Assembly: GCA_013297755.1 (NCBI GenBank)
Contig: JAAFIH010000009.1
Location: 62,001 to 126,000, forward strand
Reading direction: 5' to 3'
Length of the DNA stretch: 64,000 nucleotides
From: Cytophagales bacterium
GTDB taxonomy: Bacteria; Bacteroidota; Bacteroidia; Cytophagales; UBA9547
Part shown: in pieces, positions 34,303-60,520 of the stretch
Layout: each line of letters begins with the position of its first letter
Position numbering within the stretch: position 1 is the stretch's first letter
Position numbers and translations under genes: made by a program
The notes under the pieces: generated by a model
The model's input: only the letters and a program-made list of their open reading frames with translations
The model's database searches: none
Told to the model about the DNA's origin: nothing

Positions 34303-34309
34303 TTGAATT

Positions 34310-34537: not shown

Positions 34538-34680
34538 GATGCAGATAGTTTTGTGCACCAAATGACTCCTTGTCTCCATTGTATATTCATCTGATGAATT
34601 TGGTTTGATAACCATTTAATAAGAAAGTAATTGTTATATTTTTTTGTAGCAATTTTCGCAAGGCATAATTTGATTTTCCA

Positions 34681-34729
34681 TATTTTTTTAAGTTTATTAA
34701 ACAAGTATTTAATTAATAAGTATATTTGT
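34681..34729. repeat. Conserved cassette 3' flank, copy 3 (inverted)
   Basis: Read on the minus strand: ACAAATATACTTATTAATTA ... TTGTTTAATAAACTTAAAAA. It follows toxin module 3 in the same relative place as copies 1 and 2. Confidence 0.7.
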
Positions 34730-34770
34730 AAAAGATTGAAAAGGGTTTATACCCTGAACGATCAACCATA

Positions 34771-34802
34771 AATGGCTATTTAATCAAAGTTAAGTAGCCA
34801 TT
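34771..34802 (-). terminator. Terminator of toxin module 3
   Basis: AATGGCTA / TAGCCATT hairpin just beyond the stop codon of the minus-strand module, with a smaller GGGT/ACCC hairpin further on. Confidence 0.5.
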
Positions 34803-34807
34803 CGTAT

Positions 34808-35003
34808 TTATTGATTATCATAAATATTTTCAAATATTGACAGATAACTTTTATTTTTTATAGATTCACTTTTGATATAATGCAATCTATTTTTTGAATC
34901 TACAAGCCAAACCTCATCAATTATTTTATTATAATTATCAGGAGTTAGATTTGCAGCAATAGCTCTTTTTTGGTCTGTTATTATAACAATTTTGCTTGAA
35001 ATA
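34808..35003 (-). pseudogene. Orphan toxin module 3, C-terminal fragment
   Basis: Codes about 62 residues (KIVIITDQKRAIAANL, IIDEVWLVDSKNRLHYIK) that align with the last third of module 2 (KVIVIELENPNMTKRTL, IIEEIWLIGKNNKLYTMN). The 5' part is missing because the first CRISPR repeat starts at 35004. The open frame that continues upstream is only a reading of the repeat and is not protein. Confidence 0.65.
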
Positions 35004-36844
35004 GTTGTAATTGGCTTTAATCGAAAATGAATGATTGATTTTAAAGGATTTCTCATTCGCTTCGCAGACAAAATTGTATCTTTGCCATTGATAAACAACA
35101 ATAAGGTTTAAGGGCTTTACTCCTTGATGGTTGTGATTTGCTTTCAAAATTGTACCTTTGCCATTGATAAACAACTTAGCTCGTGTAATGGAATGGCCTT
35201 GCTTTGTTGTGATTTGCTTTCAAAATTGTATCTTTGCCATTGATAAACAACAGAAAGATACTAATATTTGACCCCAACAACGTTGTGATTTGCTTTCAAA
35301 ATTGTATCTTTGCCATTGATAAACAACGTAGCTTTTTGTTTTGACAAAATCGAAGATGTTGTGATTTGCTTTCAAAATTGTATCTTTGCCATTGATAAAC
35401 AACAGGATAAATTTGTATGTAACATACATCATCGTTGTGATTTGCTTTCAAAATTGTATCTTTGCCATTGATAAACAACTTTCAAGTTTATTTCAAAATT
35501 CAGTAAGTGGTTGTGATTTGCTTTCAAAATTGTATCTTTGCCATTGATAAACAACGTGCATCATTTTTAAATAATGATTGATGTTGTTGTGATTTGCTTT
35601 CAAAATTGTATCTTTGCCATTGATAAACAACGCAGGTAGCGTTGATAAATTAGCTAACAGTGTTGTGATTTGCTTTCAAAATTGTATCTTTGCCATTGAT
35701 AAACAACAAACCATAGTTTCGGATACTTACATAGGTAGTTGTGATTTGCTTTCAAAATTGTATCTTTGCCATTGATAAACAACGGACGACCCTCAAAACC
35801 AAAAACTACCTTTGTTGTGATTTGCTTTCAAAATTGTATCTTTGCCATTGATAAACAACGTACGTACTCGGCAAGAGGCTTTGACAATTGTTGTGATTTG
35901 CTTTCAAAATTGTATCTTTGCCATTGATAAACAACTTTGATTTACAAATTGCTTCGAAATCCTTTGTTGTGATTTGCTTTCAAAATTGTATCTTTGCCAT
36001 TGATAAACAACAAATGTAGTGGTAAGTAATATTTCTTCTTCGTTGTGATTTGCTTTCAAAATTGTATCTTTGCCATTGATAAACAACCTAAAATTAGAAA
36101 TCAAAAATGAATCTAAGTTGTGATTTGCTTTCAAAATTGTATCTTTGCCATTGATAAACAACAGTAATCCTTGTGATGAGTATTCTATCGGTGTTGTGAT
36201 TTGCTTTCAAAATTGTATCTTTGCCATTGATAAACAACTTTTTTTGAAATAATTGCTTCATAATTTATGTTGTGATTTGCTTTCAAAATTGTATCTTTGC
36301 CATTGATAAACAACTGTAAGAGTTTCGTGTTCATTGCTCTCTTGTTGTGATTTGCTTTCAAAATTGTATCTTTGCCATTGATAAACAACCTATATAAATT
36401 AAATATTGATTTCTATTTGTTGTGATTTGCTTTCAAAATTGTATCTTTGCCATTGATAAACAACCAATAGTAGTTGAATTATTAATCATTGCGTGTTGTG
36501 ATTTGCTTTCAAAATTGTATCTTTGCCATTGATAAACAACACCATACATTATAAGTAGATACTACACCATGTTGTGATTTGCTTTCAAAATTGTATCTTT
36601 GCCATTGATAAACAACAAATTAATAAAAATAACGATGGAATATAAAGTTGTGATTTGCTTTCAAAATTGTATCTTTGCCATTGATAAACAACTTTACAGG
36701 ATAAAAATGTGCCAATCTCACTGTTGTGATTTGCTTTCAAAATTGTATCTTTGCCATTGATAAACAACCGAAATTTTAGCTTCTTGTATCACCGATGAGT
36801 TGTGATTTGCTTTCAAAATTGTATCTTTGCCATTGATAAACAAC
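35004..36844 (+). CRISPR. Type II-C CRISPR array, 24 repeats
   Basis: 46-nt repeats (GTTGTGATTTGCTTTCAAAA, then TTGTATCTTTGCC, ending ATTGATAAACAAC) with spacers of 29-30 nt. 23 regular repeats start at 35130 and recur every 75-76 bp to 36799. A further repeat at 35004-35099 carries a 50-nt insertion after base 15 and is followed by a normal 30-nt spacer. The first regular repeat has one change (TATC to TACC). All others appear identical. The ends GTTGT/ACAAC are complementary. The crRNA direction is inferred as plus: the 5' half of the repeat pairs with the tracrRNA candidates, and each repeat holds a promoter-like TTG-N19-TATCTTTG. Confidence 0.97.
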
Positions 36845-36888
36845 CGATTGCTTACAAGCGTTTGACTTTCAGGTAGTTAGGACGAAGA

Positions 36889-39478: not shown

Positions 39479-39814
39479 CTAAAACAATTCCAACTGTTGT
39501 GGCATATTTTCACGGTGTTTTTTTTCTCTGCAATAAAATATTTTCATGTCGCCAAACTGCTTGTCGGTAATTTTTGTAATGACTACGTGCCCTTTTTCGG
39601 GTAGTAAATCTTGTACACGTTTGATGTGCACATCGGCATTTTCGCTACTAAAGCAATGTCGCATATACATGCTGTACTGAAACATCGTAAATCCATCTCT
39701 CATTATTTCTGTACGAAATTTTGTGGCTGCTTTTCGCTCCTTGGTTTCTACCACTGGCAAATCAAAATATACCATTACCCACATGATTCTATATTGGTTT
39801 AGTCGGTCCAACAT
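39479..39814 (-). CDS. cas2: CRISPR-associated endonuclease Cas2
   Basis: Cas2 of 111 residues, the structural partner of Cas1 in spacer integration. The beta-alpha-beta ferredoxin fold is seen in MWVMVYFDLPVVETKERKAATKFR (Asp of the first strand at YFDLP) and in GHVVITKITDKQFGDMKIFY. This subtype II length and the LDRLNQYR leader are typical of type II-C. It lies 56 bp after cas1 and 33 bp before the HIRAN gene, all on the minus strand. ATG is at 39814; a second ATG a few codons in is possible. Confidence 0.95.
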   Translation of the reverse strand: MLDRLNQYRIMWVMVYFDLPVVETKERKAATKFRTEIMRDGFTMFQYSMYMRHCFSSENADVHIKRVQDLLPEKGHVVITKITDKQFGDMKIFYCREKKHRENMPQQLELF

Positions 39815-39870
39815 GGCTTTAAATATTTGGTCTATTCAAAGTTAATGATAATGTGGATAACTACAAAACT

Positions 39871-40797
39871 TTATTGTATAAAATTTGGGTAAATTATTTT
39901 TCTATAATCGCCTTCAAAACATTTATAGACAGAAAATGTAGTTTTTTGCACTCCCACCATCAATGGACTTTTGGTGCCTTCTATTTCTATATCCAATGTA
40001 GGTATTTGCAAAAGTTGGGCTTTTATTTCTTTAGAAATTTCAACAGTTGTGGGATGTTTTGATATAATCTGCAAAACCAGTGCATCAACTATGGGTCTGT
40101 AGGGTTCCATAATATCATCGGCCAAGCAATAAGCGTTGTATTGATTGCGATGATGAATACCTAGAGTGGGCAAAAGCCCAGAACCTACCAAGCTGCGTGC
40201 CACTGTGGCCCGCAAAATGGCATAGCCATAGTTTAGAAAATTATTGGGATAAAAACCCTCTCGCTCACGCACAAAGTCTTGTATATTAGCATGATTAATA
40301 AAAATATTTTTCCAATAATAAGCTGCTGCTCGAGCCTCGTGGTTGTCGCTGTCTCCTGATTTTACATCGTCTTCCCAGCGTTTCATGTTGCCTGTTTCTA
40401 TGCCTTGCGATGCCAGCAAAAGGGCTTGGTTGTGTATTTTGGCTTTGATGGTTTGTTGCCACAGTTGTTTTTTGAGCGGTTCAGTGGCTTCTATTTGGGC
40501 TTTAAATCTGGCAGATTGCAACGTATGTCCATCCAAATTGAGCATCAAGCCTGTGGGGTGGTGGGTGGCGTTGCAAGTAATCAAAGCCACATTATTTGCT
40601 AATAATTTATCTATCAAACCATGTGAGATAGTAATTTGTTGATTATCCAAAATCACTATACCAATATCTTCGATAGGGATAGTATTCAACTCCCCAATCT
40701 CGTCCAGACCATTCGCATTTGGCAAATTAAATACCAGTTGCTCGTTTTTGGTTCGCAAATATACAGGGTTTGAAAATGAAAGTGTGCGTTTTAACAT
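39871..40797 (-). CDS. cas1: CRISPR-associated integrase Cas1
   Basis: Cas1 of 308 residues, subtype II form. With Cas2 it integrates new spacers at the leader end of the array. The N-terminal beta domain begins LKRTLSFSNPVYLRTKNEQL. The catalytic helical domain has NHEARAAAYYWKNIF with the metal-binding Glu, GIHHRNQYNAYCLADDIMEPYRP with the His and Asp, and the late KTTFSVYKCFEGDYRK region. Only 6 bp separate it from the ATPase gene upstream, so the two are co-transcribed. Confidence 0.97.
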   Translation of the reverse strand: MLKRTLSFSNPVYLRTKNEQLVFNLPNANGLDEIGELNTIPIEDIGIVILDNQQITISHGLIDKLLANNVALITCNATHHPTGLMLNLDGHTLQSARFKAQIEATEPLKKQLWQQTIKAKIHNQALLLASQGIETGNMKRWEDDVKSGDSDNHEARAAAYYWKNIFINHANIQDFVREREGFYPNNFLNYGYAILRATVARSLVGSGLLPTLGIHHRNQYNAYCLADDIMEPYRPIVDALVLQIISKHPTTVEISKEIKAQLLQIPTLDIEIEGTKSPLMVGVQKTTFSVYKCFEGDYRKIIYPNFIQ

Positions 40798-40803
40798 TTT
40801 TTC

Positions 40804-41940
40804 TTAGAATTTAATTTTAAGCCATCGCATCAAAAATTTATCATATACTTGATAAAATGGTTCGTCAATTCCTGTTTGATAATAAATCATCTCTTTTTCT
40901 AGCAGTGCATCTAGGCTTCTTTTTACAGCAGCTGGTGTGCCTAAATTATTTTTTGAAATAAAATTTTTTGACTGAGGCTGAAATACTTTTTCTTCTTTCG
41001 CAATCGCACACAGCAAATTCCATTGTGCCTGTGTGAGCAAATTTTTATACTGAAAATACACATTTTCGTTTAGTTTTAAAATTTCATGTGCTGTTTCGTG
41101 GGCAATCGCAAGCGTATTGTGGGTGTGGTTTTTGAAAAATAATTGCGAGCAAAAATATTGCGTATAAAACGTATGTAAGCCTGTCCAATCACAAATAAAA
41201 TCTAAACAGTCTGGCGTTATTTCTTTTTTGCAAGATGCAAATTTTTGGAGTATAAATTGCTTATAAATTTCAGCATCGATAAAGTCTAAATTTATGTTTG
41301 TACAACTCGCAAAAAAAGGTCTTTTAGCAGAATTGAATATTTCGTTCATCATTTTCTGGTTGCTTCCACAAAATATAAACGATGTGTTTTTAAGCGTTTG
41401 AATCGAAGTGCGTAGCAATGATTCAACATTTTTTTCTGGATATGACAATACTTGCTGAAACTCATCTATGGCAAATACTATTTTGATATTTTGGCTGTCT
41501 AAAAAACTTAAAATTTGCCCAATCGTGTTTTCTTTTTGGGCTTTTGTTTCCATCGTTAAACTCAGCGATGGCGTGCCAGTGAGTTCATCAAAAGATATAA
41601 CAGGTCTAAATAGTTGAAAAATATCTGTTATTTTTCTTCCAAAATGCTTCTTTTTAGGGAAATAATTGTATACTTCTGTAGCAATTTGGTTCGTAAAATC
41701 AGCTAAATTCTGGGTTGAAAGTATATCAATATAGATACAAACGATATCAGAATTGTCTTTATATTGATTAAAAACATGATGAATTAAGCCTGTTTTCCCA
41801 ATTCTTCTAACAGCAAAAAGAGCAATATGAGTGCCATTTTGAATGAAATTTGCCATTTGTTGGGTTTCTTCAATGCGGTCGCAAAAATAATCAGGACCGT
41901 TATATCCTGCGGATAAGAATGGATTCGATAGCTTTTTCAT
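40804..41940 (-). CDS. AAA ATPase (archaeal-ATPase type) inside the cas operon
   Basis: P-loop ATPase of 378 residues from the ATG at 41940. An earlier ATG at 42024 adds 28 residues that only translate a palindromic promoter region. Walker A is FAVRRIGKTGLI (residue ~50), Walker B VFAIDEFQQ, a sensor follows at SFIFCGSNQKMM, and the C-terminal winged helix ends DEPFYQVYDKFLMRWLK. This is the Arch_ATPase (PF01637)-like family common in Bacteroidota, with no agreed role. It sits between cas9 and cas1 with 6 bp to cas1, and has its own promoter-like sequence. It is not a known core component of type II-C. Confidence 0.85.
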   Translation of the reverse strand: MKKLSNPFLSAGYNGPDYFCDRIEETQQMANFIQNGTHIALFAVRRIGKTGLIHHVFNQYKDNSDIVCIYIDILSTQNLADFTNQIATEVYNYFPKKKHFGRKITDIFQLFRPVISFDELTGTPSLSLTMETKAQKENTIGQILSFLDSQNIKIVFAIDEFQQVLSYPEKNVESLLRTSIQTLKNTSFIFCGSNQKMMNEIFNSAKRPFFASCTNINLDFIDAEIYKQFILQKFASCKKEITPDCLDFICDWTGLHTFYTQYFCSQLFFKNHTHNTLAIAHETAHEILKLNENVYFQYKNLLTQAQWNLLCAIAKEEKVFQPQSKNFISKNNLGTPAAVKRSLDALLEKEMIYYQTGIDEPFYQVYDKFLMRWLKIKF

Positions 41941-41944
41941 ACCC

Positions 41945-41974
41945 CAAATATATACAACATTTTGTATGATACAA
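41945..41974 (-). promoter_or_regulatory. Promoter of the ATPase gene
   Basis: On the minus strand: TTG (41972-41974), 19 bp, TATATTTG (41945-41952), matching the Bacteroidota consensus TTG-N19-TAnnTTTG. The ATG at 41940 is only 4 bp beyond the -7 box, so the transcript would be almost leaderless. Confidence 0.6.
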
Positions 41975-41998
41975 AATGTATGATACAAAATGTTGTAT
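41952..41998. promoter_or_regulatory. Operator-like overlapping palindromes
   Basis: ACATTTTGTAT, G, ATACAAAATGT at 41957-41979 is a perfect 11+1+11 palindrome. A second half site ATACAAAATGTTGTAT at 41983-41998 pairs with 41952-41967. The motif ATACAAAATGT is thus repeated and lies across the promoter spacer, as a repressor site would. Confidence 0.6.
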
Positions 41999-42085
41999 GA
42001 AATTTCATTTTCACTTGCAACCATCTATAAAAATAGCAAATCGTAATGCTGTTTTCGTGGATGATTAGGCTTTGGAGATATTCAA

Positions 42086-45000
42086 TTATACTTTCCATTT
42101 TATTTCTCCATCTGGCATCATTTCAAAGTGTTTGTGTTCTATGGCAAAATTGAAGTTTCCTTTAGTTAATAAATACCTATGTTTGGGTTTATTAAAATCA
42201 ATTTTACTATATCCAAATGAGTAAATTTTATCTTCCAATTCTTTTCCTTTCTTTGAAATTTCATCGGCTGAACGTGCTTCTAAATGATATTCAAATGTCA
42301 TTTGTATACCTTTAAACTTTAAAATTCTATACAGCCTTTTATTTAAGGTAGTTTTATCTAACCCCTTTAATTCTTCTAATTTCTGTTCAAAGAAAATAAC
42401 TTTAGTTCCAGGCTTAAGTAAAGCATAAGGCTGGATAGTCTCACCTGCTTTATTCAATTTTGAGATAGAAATTTCTCCTTTCTCATTGAGTAGTTTATGA
42501 GAAACCAGATAAGCTGCATCCAATAAATTTATAATTTCGAATTCTCTTTCTTGTTTTCCTAAATAATCGTATTGATAAAAAGCACAAATAATATTTGCCC
42601 CTTTAGCAGTGTCTGCATAGTAGTATTTTTTGTATTCTTTTTCAGATTCAAAAACGTGTTTTCGAATCTGTAGAGGATTTTTCAAGTCTGTTTTTACCCT
42701 TACTTTATTTATTCTTATGACTTTTTCTTCGTTCATCCAAATGGGATTCTTAAAGGTTTCCTTGTTTAATCCGTATTTTTCTATATGGTCAAGTACTTTT
42801 TTGCGAACGACTGGGTCTATTATGTCTTCCAATGCTTTTTTATCTTTAAATCCTAAATCGCTGAACTCTAATTTTTTTCTAATAACGTAAACACGCTTTG
42901 CATTTTCCTCATATTCAAATTCGCCAGAATCATTTCGTAAAGGGTTTCCTTCTACATCTAATTTTGGCAAAATGATAGCCCCAAGCATTGATTCATTATG
43001 TAATTGCCCTCTTATGGTATCACCAGTAGCTACTTTTGGTATTTTTTTACCTTCATTATCTAATATAAATTGCCCTGATTTATCTGTGAGGTAGACTATC
43101 TTACCTCGTTTCCGCACATACTTCACAGTTTGAATTACGGCTTTGTCTCTAGTAGAATTTTGAATTAGTGTTTCATCATCCAATTTTAATAATTGACTTT
43201 GATGGAAATTTTTCCATGGTTTTTTATGGAATTTAATTTTTTGCTCTTGTGCCTCAAAATATTGTTTCAGAATGCTTTCTCTTTCAGCTGCCTTAGGAAT
43301 GAGGGTAAGCACAGCAGCATCTATGGTATGGTGGGTGTGTTTACTTCGGTTTTTTTCTTCATTTATCTCAAATATTTTCCTAAATATAGATGTTACCTCC
43401 CCCTTTTGAACATCTACACGCTTAAAAACTGACTTCATGTAATGAAACGCATACTTGGTAATAATTTGGGTATCAACCAAATTTGCATTTCTGAAACCCC
43501 CTTTAACTTCTGTCATTTGAAATCGGTAGAGTTTGTTTTTCCAATAATCCAATTCAAACCTAATTATGTGTTTTTCTTGAATGGCTAAATCCTTAGAGTC
43601 CTTTGACTGGGCAGATTTAGACTTTTTCTTAGCCAGTTCGTACCTAAATTTTAGTTTTTCTACTTTATCAATCCAAGGCGTAAGTCTGGCTTCTATTTCC
43701 GTATAGTTTTCCAGTTGGGTGGGTATTCTATTATTTTTCCTGGCATTAAAGGCAGTTTCGCAAAGTGTCTTATTTTCCATTGAATCGTCAAATGATTGAC
43801 TGGCTGGAATAGTGTGCTCAATTTGAAATTTCATCCCATCAAACACATCTGCGATACTTATCATTTCTCCTGTGTAGATGCTCATTTTGCCCTGTTCATT
43901 CCAAAGCCGTACTTTTTGAATGAGATCTTTATCGTTTTTATTATATCCATGTCTTTCTATTTCAACCTTGTATTCTTCGTTTTTCTTTTCATTAGCATTT
44001 TGCCATTTTTCGATAGCCACCCTCATATTTGCATCATTAAGGTCTCTAGCAAGTTCCACTACCACTCTATCATCTTCATCTATTTTTTCAGTTTCTATCA
44101 AATAATTCATCAATCTTTTGAGCTCATGCAATGTTCGCATTGCCATTGGATTCTTGAACGAACCTGTTTTGGGGCTTTGCAAATATTTTTTATGGTCTTC
44201 TTTATCGGGAAGAGAAGGTTGATAAATGTCGTTGTCTGATGGATGATATAGTTTTTCTATATCTTTATCCGTAATGTGGTCAAAATTATTTCTTAAAAAC
44301 TGAATGACCGCTTCATCCAATCGTGGAATGGGTAAAAATGTTTTAGCTTTTGTTCCCCGTGGATATTGCAAGAACTTCAGGTACAAATCCGAAACCGTTT
44401 TAGTTATGAAATCTTGTTTCTCTTTTGGAAATTCATTCCAAGATTTTTGTCCAAAATAGTCTAAAATTGAATCATTTATTTCTTTTTTGTCATTCGCATC
44501 CAATTGGTACGAATTGTCCCAACCAAATTGCTCTTCATTTGGCAATGCAAGAAATTTGCCAATCAAATTATTGACAATCTTTAAGGTGTCATTTATACTG
44601 TTTTGATATTTAAAGATATATGTAATCCCTTCTTGTATTACGGACTTATGCGTATTGTAAAATTCTACTCCTACAACTTTTGGCATATTTGCATATAGTA
44701 CTGCTTCTGTATATATAAAACCTTGAAGTAGGTACTCATTGATTTTTGTAATTGCATTTAAGCTCAGTTGTGCATATCCATCAGGTGTCTTTTTCCAAAG
44801 AATTACAAATTTATCAGCCATTTTGGGTTCTAACCCCAGTTTTTCAATTGCGAACAATTCAACTCTATCTTTATCATCAAAATTAAAAAGAACATGCCAA
44901 ATATCTTCAAGAGTGTATTTTCCTATTTTTTGCGTTTGCCAATTTTCTCCAAATATTTCATATAATCCTGCACAAATTGGACTTGCAGCAATGTTTTGAT

Positions 45001-46054
45001 GAGTTTTATAATTGAAATCGTATCCTCCATCCAGCAATTTGATAATCTCTTCAAAATCAAAAGAAGTATCTTTCTTTTTAAGAAATTTTTCTTTCCAAAT
45101 TTTCTCTTTCCATTCAGTTGGTATGGTTCGAAAATTATTTTTTTCTTCGCTTTTATATTTGTATTTGATGTTGTTAATCACGCTCCAAGCCCTAAAAACT
45201 TCAAATTGAGGGTGGCTAATAGGACAACGTGTTTTGTTTTTTTCTAAGGTACATTTACCTACCAAGCCTTTTTGTGAACGCAGTGGTCTTTGCCAAATAA
45301 TTGCTTTATGGATGTTTTTATAAAAATCAGAATCTTTTGATATGCCTTGAACCTCACAAATTAGATTTAATTCATGCTCTACTTGTTTGCGAAGTATATA
45401 CCTGTTTCTAATTCTATCAAATCTAGTATCTAATGTAGCCAATGCAGCTCCCAAACTTCCTTCAGTTTCTATTAAATTAGTAATTGCATCTGATCCAGGT
45501 CTGCCTTCTATTCCTTTAGAAATGGTTTCACTTTCATTTCCTTGCTCTTTTCTACCACTCAAAAAACCTCTTCTTTGAACCAAATGGTATAAAGCCCTAC
45601 CTATTTCTAAATTTGAGAGTTTTTCTCTAATAGCTTTAGCTCTCAATTGATACGGATTTTCATATTCACTTACCGAATCGTTGTTGAAATCTAGTTTCAA
45701 CCAATTGTGAAATAGAGTAGAAGTAGGATAAACACGTTTTCTAATTGCTTTATCATAATGATACCAAGCCTCAAAATCTTTTTTTGAAAGTGGACAAAAT
45801 TGACTTTCAGTTTCAATAAGTGTTTTTATGAGTTGCCATTTTTGGTATTTCTTTACTTGATAGTTTCTTCGTATGCCCCGATTTTTAGTTCGTTTAAAAA
45901 CCATTGGCTCTTCATTTCCAGAACTATCTTGTCCAACTCCCTTTTTGAAAATCAAAACACCATTATCAATAATCTGATTTTCTTCCAACTGAGGGTTTCT
46001 AATTGCCCAACCAATAGAATTTGTTCCTAAATCTAGTCCAATAATTTTGTTCAT
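42086..46054 (-). CDS. cas9: CRISPR-associated endonuclease Cas9, type II-C
   Basis: Cas9 of 1322 residues, the RNA-guided double-strand DNA nuclease. RuvC-I is at the N-terminus (IIGLDLGTNSIGWAI, Asp ~8), followed by the Arg-rich bridge helix (RTKNRGIRRNYQVKKYQKWQ). RuvC-II is at ~665 (VVVELARDLN), HNH at ~745 (IEHTIPASQSFDDSMENKTL) and RuvC-III at ~910 (THHTIDAAVLTL). All catalytic residues appear intact. No csn2 or cas4 is present, so the locus is type II-C, in the long Bacteroidota branch. It is divergent from tracrRNA candidate A. ATG at 46054. The guide pairing and PAM cannot be read from this sequence. Confidence 0.97.
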   Translation of the reverse strand: MNKIIGLDLGTNSIGWAIRNPQLEENQIIDNGVLIFKKGVGQDSSGNEEPMVFKRTKNRGIRRNYQVKKYQKWQLIKTLIETESQFCPLSKKDFEAWYHYDKAIRKRVYPTSTLFHNWLKLDFNNDSVSEYENPYQLRAKAIREKLSNLEIGRALYHLVQRRGFLSGRKEQGNESETISKGIEGRPGSDAITNLIETEGSLGAALATLDTRFDRIRNRYILRKQVEHELNLICEVQGISKDSDFYKNIHKAIIWQRPLRSQKGLVGKCTLEKNKTRCPISHPQFEVFRAWSVINNIKYKYKSEEKNNFRTIPTEWKEKIWKEKFLKKKDTSFDFEEIIKLLDGGYDFNYKTHQNIAASPICAGLYEIFGENWQTQKIGKYTLEDIWHVLFNFDDKDRVELFAIEKLGLEPKMADKFVILWKKTPDGYAQLSLNAITKINEYLLQGFIYTEAVLYANMPKVVGVEFYNTHKSVIQEGITYIFKYQNSINDTLKIVNNLIGKFLALPNEEQFGWDNSYQLDANDKKEINDSILDYFGQKSWNEFPKEKQDFITKTVSDLYLKFLQYPRGTKAKTFLPIPRLDEAVIQFLRNNFDHITDKDIEKLYHPSDNDIYQPSLPDKEDHKKYLQSPKTGSFKNPMAMRTLHELKRLMNYLIETEKIDEDDRVVVELARDLNDANMRVAIEKWQNANEKKNEEYKVEIERHGYNKNDKDLIQKVRLWNEQGKMSIYTGEMISIADVFDGMKFQIEHTIPASQSFDDSMENKTLCETAFNARKNNRIPTQLENYTEIEARLTPWIDKVEKLKFRYELAKKKSKSAQSKDSKDLAIQEKHIIRFELDYWKNKLYRFQMTEVKGGFRNANLVDTQIITKYAFHYMKSVFKRVDVQKGEVTSIFRKIFEINEEKNRSKHTHHTIDAAVLTLIPKAAERESILKQYFEAQEQKIKFHKKPWKNFHQSQLLKLDDETLIQNSTRDKAVIQTVKYVRKRGKIVYLTDKSGQFILDNEGKKIPKVATGDTIRGQLHNESMLGAIILPKLDVEGNPLRNDSGEFEYEENAKRVYVIRKKLEFSDLGFKDKKALEDIIDPVVRKKVLDHIEKYGLNKETFKNPIWMNEEKVIRINKVRVKTDLKNPLQIRKHVFESEKEYKKYYYADTAKGANIICAFYQYDYLGKQEREFEIINLLDAAYLVSHKLLNEKGEISISKLNKAGETIQPYALLKPGTKVIFFEQKLEELKGLDKTTLNKRLYRILKFKGIQMTFEYHLEARSADEISKKGKELEDKIYSFGYSKIDFNKPKHRYLLTKGNFNFAIEHKHFEMMPDGEIKWKV

Positions 46055-49552: not shown

Positions 49553-50971
49553 ATGGAAACTATAGAAACCCTAAGTACTACTCAAGTTCAATTGATTACA
49601 CCAGTAGAAGCATGGCACTATAAAATTATCCCTTCTAATAAAAACACTTTTTTTTGTAGCCAATCTTCTTCTATTGCTCAGCTAAAAGAGGAGCTAGAAA
49701 TGATTTGGGATAGAAAAATTGCATTAGTACCTATTTCAGACGAGGCATTGACCAAAGCCCTCAATACTTATTATCGTAAATCTAATGGCTCACAAACTTC
49801 TAGTTCCACTGGGCAAAACTATACAGGTGGTAGCGACAATTTTTTGCCATTTATGATTGCAGAAGCTCGAAATCTAAGAAGTAGTGATATTCATATAGAA
49901 GTATATGATGCCAAATGTCGTGTGCGTATTCGCATAGATGGTATGTTGGTTGAGCGATTTAAGATTGATAAAAACGAATACCCAAGTATTATCAACAAAA
50001 TTAAAATTATGTCTCAATTGGATATTGCAGAAAAGCGATTACCCCAAGATGGACGTATATTTTTTAATAAAGAAGGGATGAAATTTGATATCAGGGTGAG
50101 TGTACTCCCTACCTTGCATGGCGAAAAAGTAGTCATGCGTTTACTGAGTAACGATTCTACCAATATTGACATAGAAAAACTAGGTTTTGAGCAAGAAGAT
50201 TTAGACAATTACTTAGAAGGAATTCGTAAACCCAATGGTATTTTGCTCATTTCAGGACCTACAGGAAGTGGGAAAACCACCACATTGTATGCTACTCTTA
50301 AATTATTAAATAAAGAAAGTAGAAATATTGTTACTATCGAAGATCCTATTGAATACACGTTAGAAGGCATCAATCAAGTACAATTAAAAGAAGTCATAGG
50401 ACTTACTTTTTCAAGTGCTTTGCGTTCTTTTTTACGACAAGATCCAGATGTAATCATGGTAGGAGAAATTCGTGATACAGAAACAGCCACTATGGCGATA
50501 AGAGCCTCACTCACAGGGCATTTGGTGTTGAGTACTATTCACACCAACTCAGCATGGGGTACTATTTCTCGTTTGATAGACATGGGTGTACCTCCTTTTT
50601 TGGTAGCTAATACACTCAATACTTCTGTAGCACAGCGTTTGGTTCGTTTGCTTTGTGATGAGTGCAAAGAGCAGCAACCTTTTGAAAGTAAACTTTATCC
50701 TAAACATTTTACTGCTCCTAGACATTTGGTACACCATCATACACCCAAAGGTTGTGCTTCTTGCCACTATACAGGCTACAAAGGCAGAAAAGCTGTGTAT
50801 GAAGTAATTCCCATAGACAAAACGCTTTCTGACCAAATCAAAAACAACAATATGCAAGTAGATGCCATTCTTGCTGAAAAAGGAATAAAAACTCTTTCTC
50901 AAAATGCTTTTGAACTTTTCGAAAATGGCAAAACAAGTTTAGAAGAAATTTATAGTTTGTTGTTTGCGTGA
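49553..50971 (+). CDS. Type II secretion / type IV pilus assembly ATPase (GspE/PilB)
   Basis: Secretion ATPase of 472 residues, a cytoplasmic hexamer that powers pseudopilus or pilus assembly. N-terminal domain to ~95, then EARNLRSSDIHIEVYDAKCRVRIRIDG. Walker A GPTGSGKTTT (~235), Asp box, DPIEYTLEGINQVQL, Walker B LRQDPDVIMVGEIRD, His box TGHLVLSTIHTN. The zinc-binding CDECK...CASC is near the C-terminus, as in GspE and PilB. It faces the secretin-PilNOP gene group across an island. The last 100 bp of this gene occur again at 53271 and 54020. Confidence 0.93.
   Translation: METIETLSTTQVQLITPVEAWHYKIIPSNKNTFFCSQSSSIAQLKEELEMIWDRKIALVPISDEALTKALNTYYRKSNGSQTSSSTGQNYTGGSDNFLPFMIAEARNLRSSDIHIEVYDAKCRVRIRIDGMLVERFKIDKNEYPSIINKIKIMSQLDIAEKRLPQDGRIFFNKEGMKFDIRVSVLPTLHGEKVVMRLLSNDSTNIDIEKLGFEQEDLDNYLEGIRKPNGILLISGPTGSGKTTTLYATLKLLNKESRNIVTIEDPIEYTLEGINQVQLKEVIGLTFSSALRSFLRQDPDVIMVGEIRDTETATMAIRASLTGHLVLSTIHTNSAWGTISRLIDMGVPPFLVANTLNTSVAQRLVRLLCDECKEQQPFESKLYPKHFTAPRHLVHHHTPKGCASCHYTGYKGRKAVYEVIPIDKTLSDQIKNNNMQVDAILAEKGIKTLSQNAFELFENGKTSLEEIYSLLFA
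50872..50971 (+). repeat. gspE 3' end, direct repeat copy 1 (native)
   Basis: Native end of the ATPase gene (…GCTTTTGAACTTTTCGAAAA…TTGTTGTTTGCG). Copies 2 and 3 follow downstream, bounding inserted cargo. Confidence 0.85.
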
Positions 50972-51030: not shown

Positions 51031-51366
51031 ATGAATAAAGAAATGCTAAATATAGAAGATAAAATCTTAAATATTGATAGTTTATTAAATTGGTTAAATA
51101 ACCAAAAAATTACTTTCTTAGCTGGTGCTGGAATTTCATTTGATTCTGGTATCCCTATAGTATCTGAATTTTATATTCAGTTTTTATCTAAATTTTATTC
51201 TAATAAAGATGCTAAGATTTTAAATGAAGAAATTAAAAAAAATAGAATACCATTTGAAAGAATGATTGAACATATTTTTAGCTATACAAATAATGATTAT
51301 TCGCTATTAAATATTTTTTTAAAAGGCAATCCAAACATAAATCATATGGTTTTAGCAAAATGTTAA
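51031..51366 (+). CDS. SIR2-domain protein, N-terminal part (frameshifted)
   Basis: 111 residues with the start of a SIR2 fold: ITFLAGAGISFDSGIP carries the NAD-binding GAGIS motif. The frame stops at 51364-51366. The next frame (51360 on) continues exactly where a SIR2 domain should (INHMVLAK, then NDTINEIYTTNFDLLIE), so the two frames are one gene shifted by -1 at an AAAA run. Either a mutation or programmed frameshifting. Base composition is markedly more AT- and Lys/Asn-rich than the flanking genes, pointing to transfer. It sits directly after the secretion ATPase in the same direction. Confidence 0.8.
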   Translation: MNKEMLNIEDKILNIDSLLNWLNNQKITFLAGAGISFDSGIPIVSEFYIQFLSKFYSNKDAKILNEEIKKNRIPFERMIEHIFSYTNNDYSLLNIFLKGNPNINHMVLAKC

Positions 51367-53147
51367 TTAATGATACTATTAATGAAATATATACAACAAA
51401 CTTTGATTTATTAATTGAAGCTGCATTAGAAAAAAATGGTTTTATTCAAAATAATTATTATTATAAATATATTGCTGAGTCAGAATTTCAAAAGAAAAAT
51501 CTTGATAATAATAAAAGAAAAATTATAAAAATTCATGGCTCAATTGATAAATTTGATTCTATTAGAACAACACTAGAGTCAATAAATACTCCTCAACTTT
51601 TAAATTTACGTGAACAAATTTTTAAAAGATTGTTTTCAACTGGTAGTCATGAAACTGTTATAACTATTGGTTATAGCTTTTCTGATGAATTTGACGTCAA
51701 TTTATATTTAGAAAAGAATGAAGTAAAAAAATATATCATTATAGTTGAACATACTAATGATACTACAATTACAATAAATCAGTTAAAAGATTATAAAAAC
51801 GGCAACAATTTTCCTGTTTTTTCTAATACGAATTGTAAAGGCTTTGCAATTAAAGTTAACACAACATTTTTTCTTAAAAAGTTATATGAGTTAAAAAAAA
51901 ACGAAAAATTATCTTTGAAAGTAGATAAGATTAATTGGAAAAATTTTCTAAATTCTTGGCATTCCCAATTTGATGAATTTCAAATTAAATGTATTGCTGG
52001 GGGCATTTGTAATTCTATGAATTTATTTCCATTTGGTAAAAAATATTTGAAAAATGCCTACAAATTAGCAGTCCAATCAAATGAAATAGAACAAATTGCC
52101 AATGTATTAAATCAATATTCCTTATCTATTTTCAGAACTAGTAATAACAAAAAGAAATTAATAAAAATTATTGAAGATTGTAAATATGCAATTGAAATAA
52201 TGAAAAAAAATAAAACTAAAATATTAAATGAAAATTTTATAAAATTATATTATGATTTAAATTACAGAATAGGTAGAATATACAAAGATGGTTTAAATGA
52301 ATATGAAAAAGCATTACAGTTTTACTATTTGGTATATAAAAAAGAGTATAAGTTAAACGAAACCAAATCAATGTCTCAAACTTTACATGAGATTGGAAAT
52401 ACATACAAATTTTTAAAAAACTTTAAGTTATCGGAAAAGTGTTTTATAAAAAGCATTAAACTAAAAAAAGATTCTGGATATATTGGAGGCTTAGCTAGAA
52501 CGTATTTTGAAATGGCAACATTAAATTATGTTGATTGTAAAGTTAACATAAAAAAAATCAAATTTTATTTGAAAGAAGCCGAAAAAATTGCTTTGAAGGC
52601 TGGCGAAATTGATTTAGTCCCATTAATAGAAAATTTTAAGGGAAACTTATTTATATTACAACAAAAATGGGTTGATGGACTTAATGTATATAAAAAAAAT
52701 TTACCACTTTGTAAAAAATATTTTTATCATAATATGATAAAAACAGCGAATTTTAATATGGCACTTTGTGAAATAAGATTAAAAAAATATGATAATGCAA
52801 TTAAACTTTTAGAAGAAAATCTTAAAAAAATTGGAGACAATAAAATAAAAGTTTTTAAACATAACCAGGAACTAGCTTTTGCATTTTTATTAAATAATAA
52901 ACCTATAGAATCTAAGGTTTATTTTCAAAAAAATGAAAAGAATATTAAAACGCTTCAACTTGAAGATGAAGATCTTGCTAGATTTTTTTTATATTCTTCT
53001 TTTTACTTTAAAAAGGAAAATGAATTTGAAAAGTCTAAAACATATCAGACAAAATCTAAAAATATTTTTTTAAAAATAAATAAAACGAGAACATTTGCTT
53101 CTTTAAAGAAACTCTTTGATCTGGAGTTGTTCAATGACGATTATTAA
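51360..53147 (+). CDS. SIR2-TPR protein, C-terminal part (frameshifted)
   Basis: 595 residues. Residues 1-~150 complete the SIR2 fold (YTTNFDLLIEAALEKNG, KIIKIHGSIDKF with the catalytic-type His, TVITIGYSFSD). The rest is a helical array of TPR-like repeats (ALQFYYLVYKKE, QTLHEIGNTYKFLKNFKLSE, IGGLARTYFEMATLN, TANFNMALCEIRLKKYDNAI). SIR2 joined to repeats is the layout of several phage-defence NADases (for example DSR- or ThsA-like). It is inserted between the ATPase gene and a duplicated fragment of its 3' end. Function inferred; activity doubtful unless the frameshift is bypassed. Confidence 0.8.
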   Translation: MLINDTINEIYTTNFDLLIEAALEKNGFIQNNYYYKYIAESEFQKKNLDNNKRKIIKIHGSIDKFDSIRTTLESINTPQLLNLREQIFKRLFSTGSHETVITIGYSFSDEFDVNLYLEKNEVKKYIIIVEHTNDTTITINQLKDYKNGNNFPVFSNTNCKGFAIKVNTTFFLKKLYELKKNEKLSLKVDKINWKNFLNSWHSQFDEFQIKCIAGGICNSMNLFPFGKKYLKNAYKLAVQSNEIEQIANVLNQYSLSIFRTSNNKKKLIKIIEDCKYAIEIMKKNKTKILNENFIKLYYDLNYRIGRIYKDGLNEYEKALQFYYLVYKKEYKLNETKSMSQTLHEIGNTYKFLKNFKLSEKCFIKSIKLKKDSGYIGGLARTYFEMATLNYVDCKVNIKKIKFYLKEAEKIALKAGEIDLVPLIENFKGNLFILQQKWVDGLNVYKKNLPLCKKYFYHNMIKTANFNMALCEIRLKKYDNAIKLLEENLKKIGDNKIKVFKHNQELAFAFLLNNKPIESKVYFQKNEKNIKTLQLEDEDLARFFLYSSFYFKKENEFEKSKTYQTKSKNIFLKINKTRTFASLKKLFDLELFNDDY

Positions 53148-53157
53148 TCTACCCTTA

Positions 53158-53240
53158 CCCTATAACTTTTTCCACCCCTTTATGAACTAACTTATAATTT
53201 GATTTTGATAGTTTAATGATTTTAAACTCTTCATTATTCA
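53158..53240. repeat. Duplicate of the PilP-like gene 3' end
   Basis: Resembles 56780-56860, the 3' end of the minus-strand PilP-like gene (TTTCCACCCCTTTATGAACT ... TGATTTTGATAGTTTA). It is followed at once by gspE copy 2, i.e. the junction expected from a tandem duplication of the locus ends. Confidence 0.7.
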
Positions 53241-53270
53241 ATCTCAAAATAAATACTATTCATTTTTTTA

Positions 53271-53372
53271 GTCGAAAAAGGAATAAAAACCTTTTCTCAA
53301 AATGCTTTTGAACTTTTCGAAAATGGCAAAACGAGTTTAGAATAAATATATAAGTTTGTTGTTTGCTTGATG
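53271..53372 (+). repeat. gspE 3' end, direct repeat copy 2
   Basis: About 100 bp, roughly 90% identical to 50872-50971, with a premature stop (TTTAGAATAAAT). Not a functional gene. Confidence 0.85.
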
Positions 53373-53416: not shown

Positions 53417-53710
53417 TTAAATTTTTAGGGTTGCGAGCGGTGTGCCAAATAGCGAAAAGATTGTAGCCTTAATAATCTCATCTACAAAAAAAGCAATTAT
53501 AAACGGAAACCTTTCAACAGATGCATACCTTATTTCCTGGCCTTTTCGTTTATATCTTGTTTGATATGAATATGGATTTTGATCTACATGAAGCATGGTC
53601 TTTTTAATTTCTAATAGAAAATCATTTTCAAGTCCTGCATTTTGGATATAATACCAGTCCATACTTTCGTGAATATCAATTTCAGCAAAAGGCAAAATTT
53701 TGTAAGCCAT
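53417..53710 (-). CDS. RelE/ParE family toxin
   Basis: 97 residues of the RelE/ParE fold: YKILPFAEIDIHESMDWYY, then FLLEIKKTMLHVDQNPYSYQ, YKRKGQEIRYASVERFPFIIAFFV. ParE poisons gyrase and RelE cuts mRNA; this fold alone does not tell which. The C-terminal active-site-like residues are changed relative to classical members (ATIFSLFGTPLATLKI), so its activity may be weak. It overlaps the upstream antitoxin gene by one base. The pair lies between gspE repeat copies 2 and 3. Confidence 0.88.
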   Translation of the reverse strand: MAYKILPFAEIDIHESMDWYYIQNAGLENDFLLEIKKTMLHVDQNPYSYQTRYKRKGQEIRYASVERFPFIIAFFVDEIIKATIFSLFGTPLATLKI

Positions 53711-53943
53711 TATTTTTGATTTCTTACAAGAAGTCTTTTTTCCATTTCATCCCAATCTAAAACAATGTTTGGGTTTTTAAAATAATGGTCAATACGATAG
53801 TCCACCTCTTTTAAGTGGGCTTGACTTAATTCAAAATCATCTTCAGGGAGATGGTAGTGTTCTTTGAGTTTTGTCCATTCTTGAATGGGTATAAACACCC
53901 CAGTTGTAATTCCTTTTTTGTCTGAAATGTATTGTATGTTCAT
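53710..53943 (-). CDS. Antitoxin partner of the RelE/ParE toxin
   Basis: 77 residues. The N-terminal YISDKKGITTGVFIPIQEWTKLK is a strand-helix antitoxin fold of the kind paired with this ParE subgroup, and the C-terminal half (LKEVDYRIDHYFKNPNIVLDWDEMEKRL) is the toxin-binding helix. It precedes the toxin gene in the same operon, with the stop and start sharing a base. Binding to its own promoter is expected for such antitoxins but no operator is clear. Confidence 0.8.
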   Translation of the reverse strand: MNIQYISDKKGITTGVFIPIQEWTKLKEHYHLPEDDFELSQAHLKEVDYRIDHYFKNPNIVLDWDEMEKRLLVRNQK

Positions 53944-54019: not shown

Positions 54020-54096
54020 TTCTCAATTAAAAATCCTTTTGAACTCCTCGAAAATGGCAAAACGAATTTACAAGAAATTTATATTTTGTTGTTTGC
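54020..54096 (+). repeat. gspE 3' end, direct repeat copy 3
   Basis: About 75 bp related to 50895-50971 (CTTTTGAACTCCTCGAAAAT...TTGTTGTTTGCTTATG), more diverged than copy 2. Confidence 0.75.
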
Positions 54097-54156
54097 TTAT
54101 GAAATATTTTTACAATTCAAAACAAATTTGTATTATTGCTTTCAAATATTAATAAT

Positions 54157-55149
54157 ATGAAATTAATACACAAACTATTGCTTCTAATATTAAGCTTATC
54201 TGCTAATATTTTTGCCCAAGATTATAATCCATACACCCAATTTGGCTATCAGGGCACTATGATGCAATCCCAACAGGAGAAAATTAAAAACCAACATTTG
54301 GTACTTATAAATGCTGATACCACTGCAAAAATTCAAAGCATAAAATTTGATACCAAAAATCAAATAGTAACCTATTTTGATAAAAATAATGTTGCCATAG
54401 GTACTGATAGCATACATTCTACAGATATGCTAAAGTTTTTGAGTGTAGATCCACTCGCGAAAGATTACCCTAATATTTCAACGTATGGTTTTGCAGAGGA
54501 AGATCCAATTAATTTTGTTGATTTAGATGGACTTGAACGTGCTTATAAAGTGCCAGGCTCTACATTTGTTATACCTGCATCTGATTATAATAGACATACC
54601 CCTCCTAGCAATGCTGTTTATGTTAATAGAGCAATGCTAAGACAGCCAACCCAAATAGAAACAGGAGCTACTAATATTGCTTTAGGGATTGCAGGGGCAG
54701 TAGGTTCTACATACACAATTGCACAAAGTGCTGGAGTTGCAGCACCACTTGGGGGCACATTGGCATTAACAACCTCAATTATTCAAATTGGCTTAGGAAT
54801 GTCTCAAGTTGGTGATGGTATTAAAAATCCAAATAATCCTAAAATTACAGATGCTAATGGTATTGGTGGCATGATTACGTCAAAATCACAAAATGATAAT
54901 ATTAAACTAGCTGGTGCTGTTTTCGATGTTGTAACAGGTGTAACTCCAGGAGTTGTAGCGAATCAAGGAGTAGCTAAATTGCCAATATTGGGTTCTGCAA
55001 AGGATTTAGTTAGTTCTACCAAAACATCAGAAACTATTTTGAGCACAGCATCTGTCATTAGTGATTATATGACTGTAAAAGATATTTATGCAACTAGCAA
55101 TGATGTAGTTGATTTAACAAAAAAATCTATTCCTAAATATGATAAATAA
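54157..55149 (+). CDS. RHS-core-like secreted protein, possible polymorphic toxin
   Basis: 331 residues from the ATG at 54157; an ATG at 54136 is also in frame but lies before the signal peptide (IHKLLLLILSLSANIFAQ). Residues ~95-130 hold the RHS repeat-associated core motif (LSVDPLAKDYPNISTYGFAEEDPINFVDLDGLE). The C-terminal two thirds are Ala/Gly/Val-rich with hydrophobic stretches (LALGIAGAVGSTYTIA) and no identifiable catalytic motif. It looks like a short secreted RHS-type effector whose N-terminal repeats are missing. The next gene may be its immunity partner. Confidence 0.65.
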   Translation: MKLIHKLLLLILSLSANIFAQDYNPYTQFGYQGTMMQSQQEKIKNQHLVLINADTTAKIQSIKFDTKNQIVTYFDKNNVAIGTDSIHSTDMLKFLSVDPLAKDYPNISTYGFAEEDPINFVDLDGLERAYKVPGSTFVIPASDYNRHTPPSNAVYVNRAMLRQPTQIETGATNIALGIAGAVGSTYTIAQSAGVAAPLGGTLALTTSIIQIGLGMSQVGDGIKNPNNPKITDANGIGGMITSKSQNDNIKLAGAVFDVVTGVTPGVVANQGVAKLPILGSAKDLVSSTKTSETILSTASVISDYMTVKDIYATSNDVVDLTKKSIPKYDK

Positions 55150-56770: not shown

Positions 56771-57271
56771 CTATCCCCTCCCAATAACTTTCTCCACCCC
56801 TTTATAAACTAACGTAATATTTGATTTTGTTAGTTTAAGGATTTTAAATTCTTCAATAATCATTCCTTCTGTTACCGTATACTCTTTGTTATTGATGTTA
56901 ATAATACCCATGTGTTTGGCATTAGCTTGATGAGAAATCAAACCTAGATATTTTACATCTGGCCAAACGATGGCTGAAACTGTTGTAATAATAGGTATAT
57001 TAAGTTTTGATATTTTAGGTACTGTGAGCTTACGTTTTATGGTTGATAAACTAGAATTTGAAAACGCAGTGCCTAAAAAAGGGTCTTTATAATTTGCCAT
57101 TAAAACATAAACAGTATCCTTTGTTTCTTCAATTTTAGCAAACTGGATTGGGTTTGTATTTACTTCAACTGCTTTTTCGGGATTCAAATCCGAAAAAAAC
57201 TTGTAAAATAAATATCCCCAAATACCTGCTACCAACACTAAAAGTAAATACGTAACGTTCTTTTTTTTCAT
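56771..57271 (-). CDS. PilP/GspC-like inner-membrane protein
   Basis: 166 residues with an N-terminal membrane anchor (VTYLLLVLVAGIWGYLFYKFF). The soluble HR-type domain (residues ~55-165: YKDPFLG, VWPDVKYLGLISHQ, INNKEYTVTEG, FKILKLTKSNITLVYKGVEKVI) matches the fold of PilP/GspC, which links the inner-membrane platform to the secretin. It is the last gene of the minus-strand secretion operon. A fragment of its 3' end is duplicated at 53158. Confidence 0.75.
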   Translation of the reverse strand: MKKKNVTYLLLVLVAGIWGYLFYKFFSDLNPEKAVEVNTNPIQFAKIEETKDTVYVLMANYKDPFLGTAFSNSSLSTIKRKLTVPKISKLNIPIITTVSAIVWPDVKYLGLISHQANAKHMGIININNKEYTVTEGMIIEEFKILKLTKSNITLVYKGVEKVIGRG

Positions 57272-59293: not shown

Positions 59294-60520
59294 TTATTTA
59301 ATTTTTATTAAAATACTAAATAATCCCTTTTGAGTTGTTTCTTCTAGTTTATAGTTTATGATTTCAGCATCTGATACAAATTTTTGTTGCTTAAGCACTT
59401 GTAACCAGTCGTTTAAGGTATTTCCATTGGGTGTTTGTCCTTCAACTATAATGGTTTTAGCATCAAATTTATATTCCTTTTTGTCTCTCTCTGCTTTTTT
59501 ATCTTGTTCTGCAATTTCTAGTTTAGTAAGAGAAATTTCTTGTGGCACATTTGCTGCTATGCAATCTGCATAATAACTCATTTTCGGGCTTTGACTCCAA
59601 CCTTCTTGTATCAGAAAGGCATTTTTCGAGGCTAATTTTTGTTTCATATCTTCAACTTCTTTCATTTCAATGGATGTCTGAGCGTATGAAAGTTCTAACG
59701 ATTGTGCTTTTTTGAAATAATATTGAAATGCAACTGTGTTCAACAATACAATACATAAAATGGCAACTAAAGCTATTATTCCTAGCTTTTTGAAAGCATA
59801 ATCATATATTGTTTGTTCTCTAGCATTTTCAAATCGACTATTTTCAACTCCCTTTTCAGGTTGAAGCAAAGCATTCAAACCTGTTGCGTAAGTAATGGCC
59901 GTATTTGCAGAAATTATTTCAGTATCTATAACTAAATCGTGGGATTGCATGGCATACTGCCAAGATATTATTTTGTAAATTCCCTGTTTGTCTTTAGCTA
60001 GATTAAATGTAAAATTCCCTGCATCCCAAGTTTCATGGTAATTATTTTGAGGAATTAAAGAAAATAAATTTGCTAAAGCCAAAGACCCCAACGAGAAAAA
60101 GATTATCACATTTCCTTCGTTCTCAACTTCTTGAAGTATAGGGTCTATCAATGATTTTCGAGCAAAAGCTACTTGCTTTTGATTTTCATCTCCAAAAATT
60201 TGAATATAAAAATCGCTTGCGATTGCTCCAGGAACAAGTTTTGAAAACCAATCTATATTTTCTTCATTTTCTTCAAACGTATACGATTTGATTAAAATCC
60301 CTTTGCCTTTTATAGTAAGTGCTATTGGCGTTTTTGTTTCTTTTTTTGAAGTTGTATTTTTGGCTGACAATTGTTCTATGTTAGCTACTTCAATTCCTTT
60401 TTTGGTTTGAATAAGGGTAATTTCTTTTCTATCTCTAGTATCATCTATTAGTTTTATATGTATTGCCTTTAGCTGAGGAAGTGTAAAAAAATAGCCTTTA
60501 ATATTAGAAAGAATCTGCAT
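59294..60520 (-). CDS. PilN/GspL-like protein with actin-like cytoplasmic domain
   Basis: 408 residues. The N-terminal ~250 residues look like the actin-like cytoplasmic domain of PilM/GspL (VIIFFSLGSLALANLF, DAGNFTFNLAKD). A membrane segment at ~265 (LGIIALVAILCIVLLNTVAF) leads into a coiled coil and a PilN-like domain (MSYYADCIAANVPQEISLTKLEI, QTPNGNTLNDWLQVL). It thus combines PilM- and PilN-type parts, as GspL does. It is 8 bp after the secretin gene. Confidence 0.8.
   Translation of the reverse strand: MQILSNIKGYFFTLPQLKAIHIKLIDDTRDRKEITLIQTKKGIEVANIEQLSAKNTTSKKETKTPIALTIKGKGILIKSYTFEENEENIDWFSKLVPGAIASDFYIQIFGDENQKQVAFARKSLIDPILQEVENEGNVIIFFSLGSLALANLFSLIPQNNYHETWDAGNFTFNLAKDKQGIYKIISWQYAMQSHDLVIDTEIISANTAITYATGLNALLQPEKGVENSRFENAREQTIYDYAFKKLGIIALVAILCIVLLNTVAFQYYFKKAQSLELSYAQTSIEMKEVEDMKQKLASKNAFLIQEGWSQSPKMSYYADCIAANVPQEISLTKLEIAEQDKKAERDKKEYKFDAKTIIVEGQTPNGNTLNDWLQVLKQQKFVSDAEIINYKLEETTQKGLFSILIKIK

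Follow-up and report, generated by a model that had tools for sequence, protein, structure and literature searches.

Antiphage NADases with a SIR2_2-type domain include DSR2, ThsA of Thoeris, the SIR2 protein of SPARSA and Avs5. Motifs of the GAGxS, TTNxD and HG type are assigned to NAD+ binding and hydrolysis in the available part of a paper on Avs5 (PMC12931631) and, likewise, in that of a paper on DSR2 (PMC11087589), and TPR is named as a partner domain of this SIR2 subfamily in the available part of PMC12700824. Our literature search for the phrase SIR2-TPR returned no paper, which is weak evidence.

Insertion with a long target duplication was reportedly first described by Nobusato et al. 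in 2000 for restriction-modification genes of Helicobacter pylori. According to the accessible portions of three papers, some restriction-modification systems insert with long, variable target duplications of about 100 bp (PMC3874152, PMC3031569, PMC1643837). The minimal mobile elements of Neisseria are cassettes that lie between conserved genes and carry no integrase of their own (PMC3898611, as far as its available text goes), and homology-facilitated illegitimate recombination is treated in PMC3240628, of which a part was available.

A SIR2-TPR gene in two frames

The window, by which we mean the whole stretch of DNA analysed, comprises 64,000 nt of contig JAAFIH010000009.1 from the Cytophagales bacterium assembly GCA_013297755.1; coordinates are those of the window unless labelled otherwise. 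Three features make up the gene:

51031..51366, + strand: ORF1, 111 aa, the N-terminal part of a SIR2 domain with the GAGIS motif
51360..53147, + strand: ORF2, 595 aa, the remaining SIR2 domain (TTNFD, HG, GYSFSD) and TPR repeats
51357..51360, + strand: AAAA run, the meeting point of the ORF1 and ORF2 frames, placed by the sequence and by homologue alignments

The two frames are offset by one base and overlap by seven, such that the ATG of ORF2 (51360), right after the AAAA run, overlaps the TAA of ORF1 (51364-51366). In single comparisons with an intact homologue of 708 aa from a Fibrimonadales MAG (L021), ORF1 aligns to residues 6-101 (53% identity, E 1e-29) and ORF2 to residues 102-689 (39% identity, E 5e-119). 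The E-values exclude a chance fit and, because the aligned residues adjoin, the two ORFs abut on L021 without a gap; as judged from these alignments, they are halves of one SIR2-TPR gene. The first-pass annotation had described such a gene, split by a one-base offset at AAAA, and held that joining the frames restores a continuous SIR2 domain followed by TPR-like repeats. Both statements agree with the ORF coordinates and the fit to L021, and the A-run, given there as 51357-51363, is corrected to the four bases 51357-51360.

ORF2 matches Pfam SIR2_2 (E 3.8e-14, 53.4 bits against a curated cut-off of 24.5) as well as TPR families. For ORF1, Pfam gave nothing up to E 1; the ORF matches the N-terminal end of the PADLOC SIR2 model (1.8e-5), and its best score against NCBIfam sirtuin models (1.1e-5) lies far under the curated cut-offs. 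The GAGxS, TTNxD and HG motifs are all present but split, with GAGIS in ORF1 and TTNFD and HG in ORF2, and the SIR2 domain has no single continuous frame in the assembly. Downstream of the offset, ORF2 contains 0 stops in 595 codons, compared with 55 and 99 in the other two frames of the same stretch. This implies that the break is recent, that the C-terminal part is still kept, or that the gene is really intact; any decay would therefore be recent, as had been noted at first reading. The G+C content of the gene is 22%, whereas 20-kb segments of the genome have 31-34%.

Homologues and their neighbours

Homologues are rare. With ORF2 as query at E 1e-10, they were found in 2 of 291 genomes of the order and 3 of 395 of the phylum, the source genome included in both counts. 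We dropped plasmids and phages as carriers of the gene because tblastn at E 1e-3 gave no match in 72,556 plasmid and 50,697 phage records; viral contigs gave no match with ORF2 alone as query and two matches, of 59 residues only, with the family alignment. An alignment of four proteins collected 60 loci from 84,980 species genomes, and all 30 aligned sequences, ORF2 among them, agree fully in the TTNFD, K.HG and GYS.SD columns.

ORFs were listed around five of the 60 loci, and the neighbours of four were searched against PADLOC and Pfam; each of the four has a defence match. The homologue in a Treponema MAG (L020) lies downstream of GajA and GajB of Gabija (E 5e-201 and 5e-199) and upstream of an Avs4-like gene (1.9e-21), while L021 has Dsr2 upstream in two pieces (3.4e-185 and 4.2e-136) and a TIR-NB-ARC-TPR gene downstream. 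Neighbours at the other two loci are AbiJ (L022; 5.6e-20) and PDC-S49 (L036; 1.3e-251). At the fifth locus (L027), neighbours judged by eye resemble housekeeping genes. Since neighbours vary among the five loci, the SIR2-TPR gene looks self-standing, and a conserved partner gene was dropped as a candidate.

Two further observations concern related genes. The Dsr2 gene of the Fibrimonadales MAG (L021:1985-5701), which adjoins the open SIR2-TPR homologue, has one in-frame stop. The source genome encodes a second SIR2_2 gene (L002; G000:C67:73663-77124), which adjoins a HerA gene as in SIR2-HerA (PADLOC SIR2 7.4e-131, HerA 2.4e-116).

Structure and predicted function

We modelled L021 with AlphaFold2 from an alignment of 30 sequences that includes ORF2 (mean pLDDT 89.9, pTM 0.88). 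The model consists of a SIR2 part (residues ~1-280) and a helical repeat (~290 to 690). In VIA-align 2 comparisons, the SIR2 part resembles SPARSA (8y80_E; Z 21.0, rmsd 3.1, 258 aligned), ThsA (8bto_A; Z 18.7, rmsd 3.3, 241 aligned) and DSR2 (8wyc_C; Z 17.9, rmsd 3.1, 233 aligned), and the helical repeat is similar to Rap (8rsv_B; Z 18.6, rmsd 5.3, 352 aligned), NprR (5dbk_A; Z 18.6, rmsd 5.7, 350 aligned) and LGN (4wnd_A; Z 19.1, rmsd 6.5, 316 aligned), a common arrangement. Among the matches listed, a plant TPR protein (7t7t_A; Z 21.5, rmsd 3.0, 269 aligned) outranks the SIR2 rows because TPR proteins fill the list, and families outside it may match as well.

The predicted structure and the neighbours (Gabija, Dsr2, AbiJ) support a putative defence role of the SIR2-TPR family, in line with the defence-type gene that the first-pass annotation had suspected. 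When mapped onto the model, the break interrupts the helix formed by L021 residues 94-104, which lies after the GAGIS motif and ahead of TTNFD. Neither fragment is expected to act as an NADase, because the catalytic residues lie beyond the end of ORF1 and the first NAD-binding motif is missing from ORF2, and we infer loss of function for the locus as found.

Nature of the frame change

At the place of the A-run, which the ORF1 and ORF2 alignments fix in L021, the two closest homologues (L020 and L021) both read CAA ATG. The same spacing occurs in 34 of the 58 loci compared at this place, and AAAA is present in these codons in 8 of the 34. In 49 of the 60 loci, a single open frame contains both SIR2 motifs (GAG[IVA]S-like and TTNFD-like). 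All eight AAAA loci belong to these 49 and so need no shift. Another ten loci were left unjudged, either because one motif pattern is absent from the frame or because the locus is at a contig end, and the remaining one, from a Methanocellaceae MAG (L026:5600-7100), is broken at other places, with the motifs in different frames and a further stop. Inspection of the sequence revealed no X XXY YYZ slippery heptamer, and the 81 bases 3' of the junction carry no signal of a stimulatory RNA structure (z -0.19; 80 of 200 shuffled sequences fold with equal or greater stability). Because the closest homologues lack the A-run, 49 of 60 loci are open and the RNA folds like its shuffles, the shift at AAAA is, on these comparisons, not a conserved device.

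Programmed -1 ribosomal frameshifting at AAAA, which would yield a small amount of full-length NADase, had been offered at first reading as a way to limit a toxic product. The AAA followed by an early stop could permit a single-tRNA slip, and the run does recur in the eight equally spaced loci, but their frames are open and the run is absent from L020 and L021; with neither heptamer nor RNA structure signal, we dropped this candidate as highly improbable. The first-pass annotation had also named, as grounds against its reading, a missing conserved slip site together with further disruptions of the gene: the slip site is indeed not conserved, and no further disruption was seen. Just as slight are the odds of a two-protein version, in which ORF2 would be translated by coupling at the ATG/TAA overlap and the halves would reassemble as a split SIR2 enzyme. 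The overlap of start and stop and the fully open ORF2 agree with it; yet the ATG of ORF2 corresponds to a Met codon in both L020 and L021, the modelled cut runs through a helix of the SIR2 core, and a split at this place occurs in 0 of the 49 homologues judged to be open.

A sequencing or assembly error, with the real gene continuous and active, is unlikely but carries distinctly more weight. The assembly is a draft of 70 contigs, the single-base offset is the one lesion seen in the gene, and a stop-free ORF2 of 595 codons is expected of an error in an intact gene just as it is of a product still under selection. On the other side, the offset sits at a run of four A, while runs of up to nine A inside the same gene stay in frame. 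When proteins of relatives (508 ORFs of at least 200 aa) were compared with the sampled genome DNA, 61 places matched in a single frame and 0 in two adjoining frames, which makes mutation likelier than error, although the places are few and a rare error would still be compatible with them. Overall, the sequence comparisons point most likely to a recent, lineage-specific break in an abortive-infection NADase of predicted activity.

Repeats around the gene

Copies of gene ends flank the SIR2-TPR gene:

49553..50971, + strand: pilB/gspE-like ATPase gene, 472 aa, open, directly upstream of the SIR2 gene and named from its sequence
50876..50971, + strand: end of the pilB-like gene, first copy, its last 96 bp (repeat search)
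53158..53243, - strand: 86-bp copy of the 3' end of a convergent gene, 86% identical, just 3' of the SIR2 stop
53274..53370, + strand: end of the pilB-like gene, second copy, 97 bp, 93% identical, behind the SIR2 gene
53417..53710, - strand: ParE-like toxin (Pfam E 0.09, weak), located between pilB-end copies two and three
53710..53943, - strand: antitoxin-like partner (Unstab_antitox, E 0.001, below cut-off)
54030..54104, + strand: end of the pilB-like gene, third, shorter copy (75 bp), 87% identical (repeat search)
56771..57271, - strand: convergent 166-aa gene, whose 3' end (56780-56865) corresponds to the 86-bp copy

The second copy of the pilB-like end contains an in-frame stop change and a one-base insertion, and a genome search at E 0.001 found no copy beyond these three places. 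The pilB-like protein itself was matched at E 1e-60 in 10 of 39 genomes, the source genome included, with no match at that threshold in the same-genus genomes G020 and G065. The 166-aa gene, without a Pfam match up to E 0.1, clusters with a PilN-like gene (59294-60520). The resulting order (pilB-like gene, SIR2, convergent-gene end, pilB-like end, toxin-antitoxin pair, pilB-like end) would be expected if insertions had stacked in a single place. No integrase is encoded among the ORFs between the repeats, and inspection of the junctions by eye showed no shared motif. Integrase-driven integration was dropped as an explanation on the lack of an integrase ORF and on the variation of the copied ends in length and sequence between sites.

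Other elements of the window are recorded here. A 337-aa ORF at 54136-55149 resembles, by eye, the C-terminal fragment of an RHS-repeat protein and has no Pfam match over cut-off. A Type II CRISPR-Cas system (35069-36850 and 39479-46054) comprises an array of ~46-bp repeats, Cas2 (39479-39814), Cas1 (39871-40797) and Cas9 (42086-46054); Cas1 and Cas9 are separated by a 406-aa gene whose match to PADLOC PDC-S27 is weak (1.7e-6). Within 32844-35101, pieces of the CRISPR repeat and a shared flank recur at 32930-33029, 33910-33977 and 34999-35099, and amid them lies a 201-aa ORF (33034-33639) that looks by eye like the end of a polymorphic toxin. At 27555-28596, direct repeats of 81 and 110 bp (94-97%) flank a RelE-like toxin and antitoxin pair recognised by eye (27813-28213). 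Finally, a 2443-aa ORF (16071-23402) has an internal repeat at 97-99% (19965-20513 and 20232-20780).

Copied gene ends across the genome

We surveyed 1,285,241 of the 4,240,542 bases of the genome (30%), window included, for local repeat pairs (at most 10 kb apart, at least 30 bp, at least 80% identity) and scored those in which the copied gene end stops within 15 bp of the stop codon. Pairs with more than four overlapping matches, such as tandem repeats and CRISPR arrays, were removed, which kept 153 of 229 pairs in this genome and 16 of 31 in relatives. Eleven of the 153 pairs, at nine genes, copy a 3' end downstream of the gene, and the mirror case at 5' ends concerns one gene. When pairs were slid along their contigs under the 15-bp rule only, the mean was 0.60 genes and the maximum 3, with nine or more in 0 of 300 slides; the 3'-end position of the copies is thus above chance in this genome. 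Under a 5-bp rule the count is six genes at 3' ends versus one at 5' ends, and under a 30-bp rule 12 versus three; relatives have 0 and 1 genes at these two settings. The copied ends measure 45-143 bp. Twelve small contigs outside the main count (56,567 bp) added no case. With other limits, a first pass found 28 pairs in 300 kb of this genome versus 3 in 280 kb, and another count, over 885 kb, gave two pairs at 5' ends and 10 at 3' ends, one of the latter lying upstream of its gene.

Eight more distant relatives, some of higher G+C, have 16 pairs and one such gene in 766,978 bp. Within the genus, G020 has three pairs and two genes in 107,279 bp, and G065 three pairs and 0 genes in 57,307 bp. 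Pair density therefore differs (153 in 1.29 Mb here versus 16 in 0.77 Mb of distant relatives), whereas the 3'-end share per pair is alike (nine genes per 153 pairs versus one per 16), so that this genome is distinguished from distant relatives only by how many local repeat pairs it has.

Two of the nine genes, the pilB-like and the 166-aa gene, belong to one event, leaving eight sites, of which five hold defence-like or toxin-antitoxin cargo. The names pilB, metH, miaA and aspS are our reading of the sequences rather than the result of a family search.

pilB-like gene: SIR2-TPR gene and toxin-antitoxin pair
second site: RhuM (PADLOC PDC-S05, 1.4e-155) and a PDDEXK_3 protein
behind a metH-like gene: AAA_15 ATPase matching PD-T4-4_A (7.1e-38) and a second gene
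fourth site: YoeB-like toxin (2.7e-27) and a small partner
fifth site: restriction-modification set that includes an R.HinP1I-like endonuclease (1.3e-86) and part of a methyltransferase (2e-80)
behind a miaA-like gene: two membrane proteins, by eye; no defence-like cargo
behind an aspS-like gene: two lipoprotein-like ORFs, by eye; no defence-like cargo
at a surface-protein gene: subtilisin-like ORFs, by eye; no defence-like cargo

The case of a 362-aa surface-protein gene may be a paralogue duplication, and that of a 368-aa gene may be a dispersed repeat. At the miaA-like gene (L086, G000:C67, 13615-17353), a 99% identical copy of the last 89 bp of the gene lies 2.75 kb downstream, after two membrane-protein ORFs of low G+C.

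A broader and doubtful interpretation is that members of the genus take up defence and toxin-antitoxin genes in cassettes that lack an integrase and target core genes at their 3' ends. The core gene would be left whole, with a copy of 45-143 bp of its end placed behind the cargo, and more cassettes could stack there, as SIR2-TPR followed by a toxin-antitoxin pair would have done at the pilB-like gene. We lowered its odds because the 3'-end share of pairs is the same in distant relatives. If it were true, a cassette might be able to loop out through its repeats and then, by a single crossover, enter any cell that has the same core gene.

Proposed mechanism and history

For the locus itself, we propose, with a probability of roughly 0.68, that a one-gene SIR2-TPR abortive-infection system was inserted behind the pilB-like gene, leaving copies of gene ends, and later lost its activity through a one-base frame change. 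From the fold, motifs and neighbours, we infer that a single protein would serve intact relatives as both sensor and effector: the TPR superhelix may recognise something made during infection, the N-terminal SIR2 domain would then hydrolyse NAD+, and cell growth would halt before phage maturation. In the order of events that we favour, the gene would have entered a Bacteroidota chromosome behind the pilB-like gene, with copies of neighbouring gene ends left at its flanks, and the frame change would have followed in this lineage.

The flank copies provide a sequence mark that might help to find cargo delivered without an integrase; within this genome, the cargo so marked includes restriction-modification, toxin-antitoxin and NADase-type genes. 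If strain comparisons confirm the pattern, long target duplication, known for restriction-modification genes, would be a more general way in which defence genes move.

Comparison with known systems

The SIR2-TPR gene shares with the SIR2_2 antiphage NADases (DSR2, ThsA, SPARSA SIR2 and Avs5) the three sequence motifs, the SIR2 fold in the model of its intact homologue, and homologues that reside in defence neighbourhoods; it differs in being split by a frame change. Unlike DSR2, neither ORF1 nor ORF2 (up to E 1) nor the L020 and L021 homologues (up to E 1e-5) match the Dsr2 model. The STAND NTPase that Avs5 has between SIR2 and its repeats is absent: Pfam scans of ORF2 (up to E 1) and of the L020 and L021 homologues (up to E 0.001) gave no NTPase family. 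ThsA models are matched by L020 and L021 over the SIR2 part only (profile up to 237 of 242 and 210 of 478), after which TPR follows.

Among routes of insertion, the minimal mobile elements of Neisseria share the position of cassettes between conserved genes and the lack of an integrase of their own. As described in the available text of PMC3898611, they are defined by cassettes that differ from strain to strain and are swapped by homologous recombination, whereas here a single genome is considered; that text makes no mention of a copied gene end. Either these elements or homology-facilitated illegitimate recombination is plausible as the mechanism. Since the copy lengths span a narrow range, a random illegitimate join is a poorer fit, although loss of longer relics could also yield such a range.

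Insertion with a long target duplication likewise leaves direct repeats of target DNA of about 100 bp around the insert, here the 97-bp and 75-bp pilB-like ends, and one other site of this genome has restriction-modification cargo. In the titles and opening lines of abstracts reached by a narrow search, SIR2 cargo was not named for this kind of insertion. The differences are that the cargo is SIR2-TPR here and also toxin-antitoxin, RhuM and AAA genes elsewhere, that the copies are 3' ends of genes, and that cassettes look stacked at the pilB-like gene. In summary, the SIR2-TPR gene is one more defence-type protein of a known kind, apparently broken, and its flank pattern resembles insertion with a long target duplication, probably a known kind of insertion with a wider cargo.
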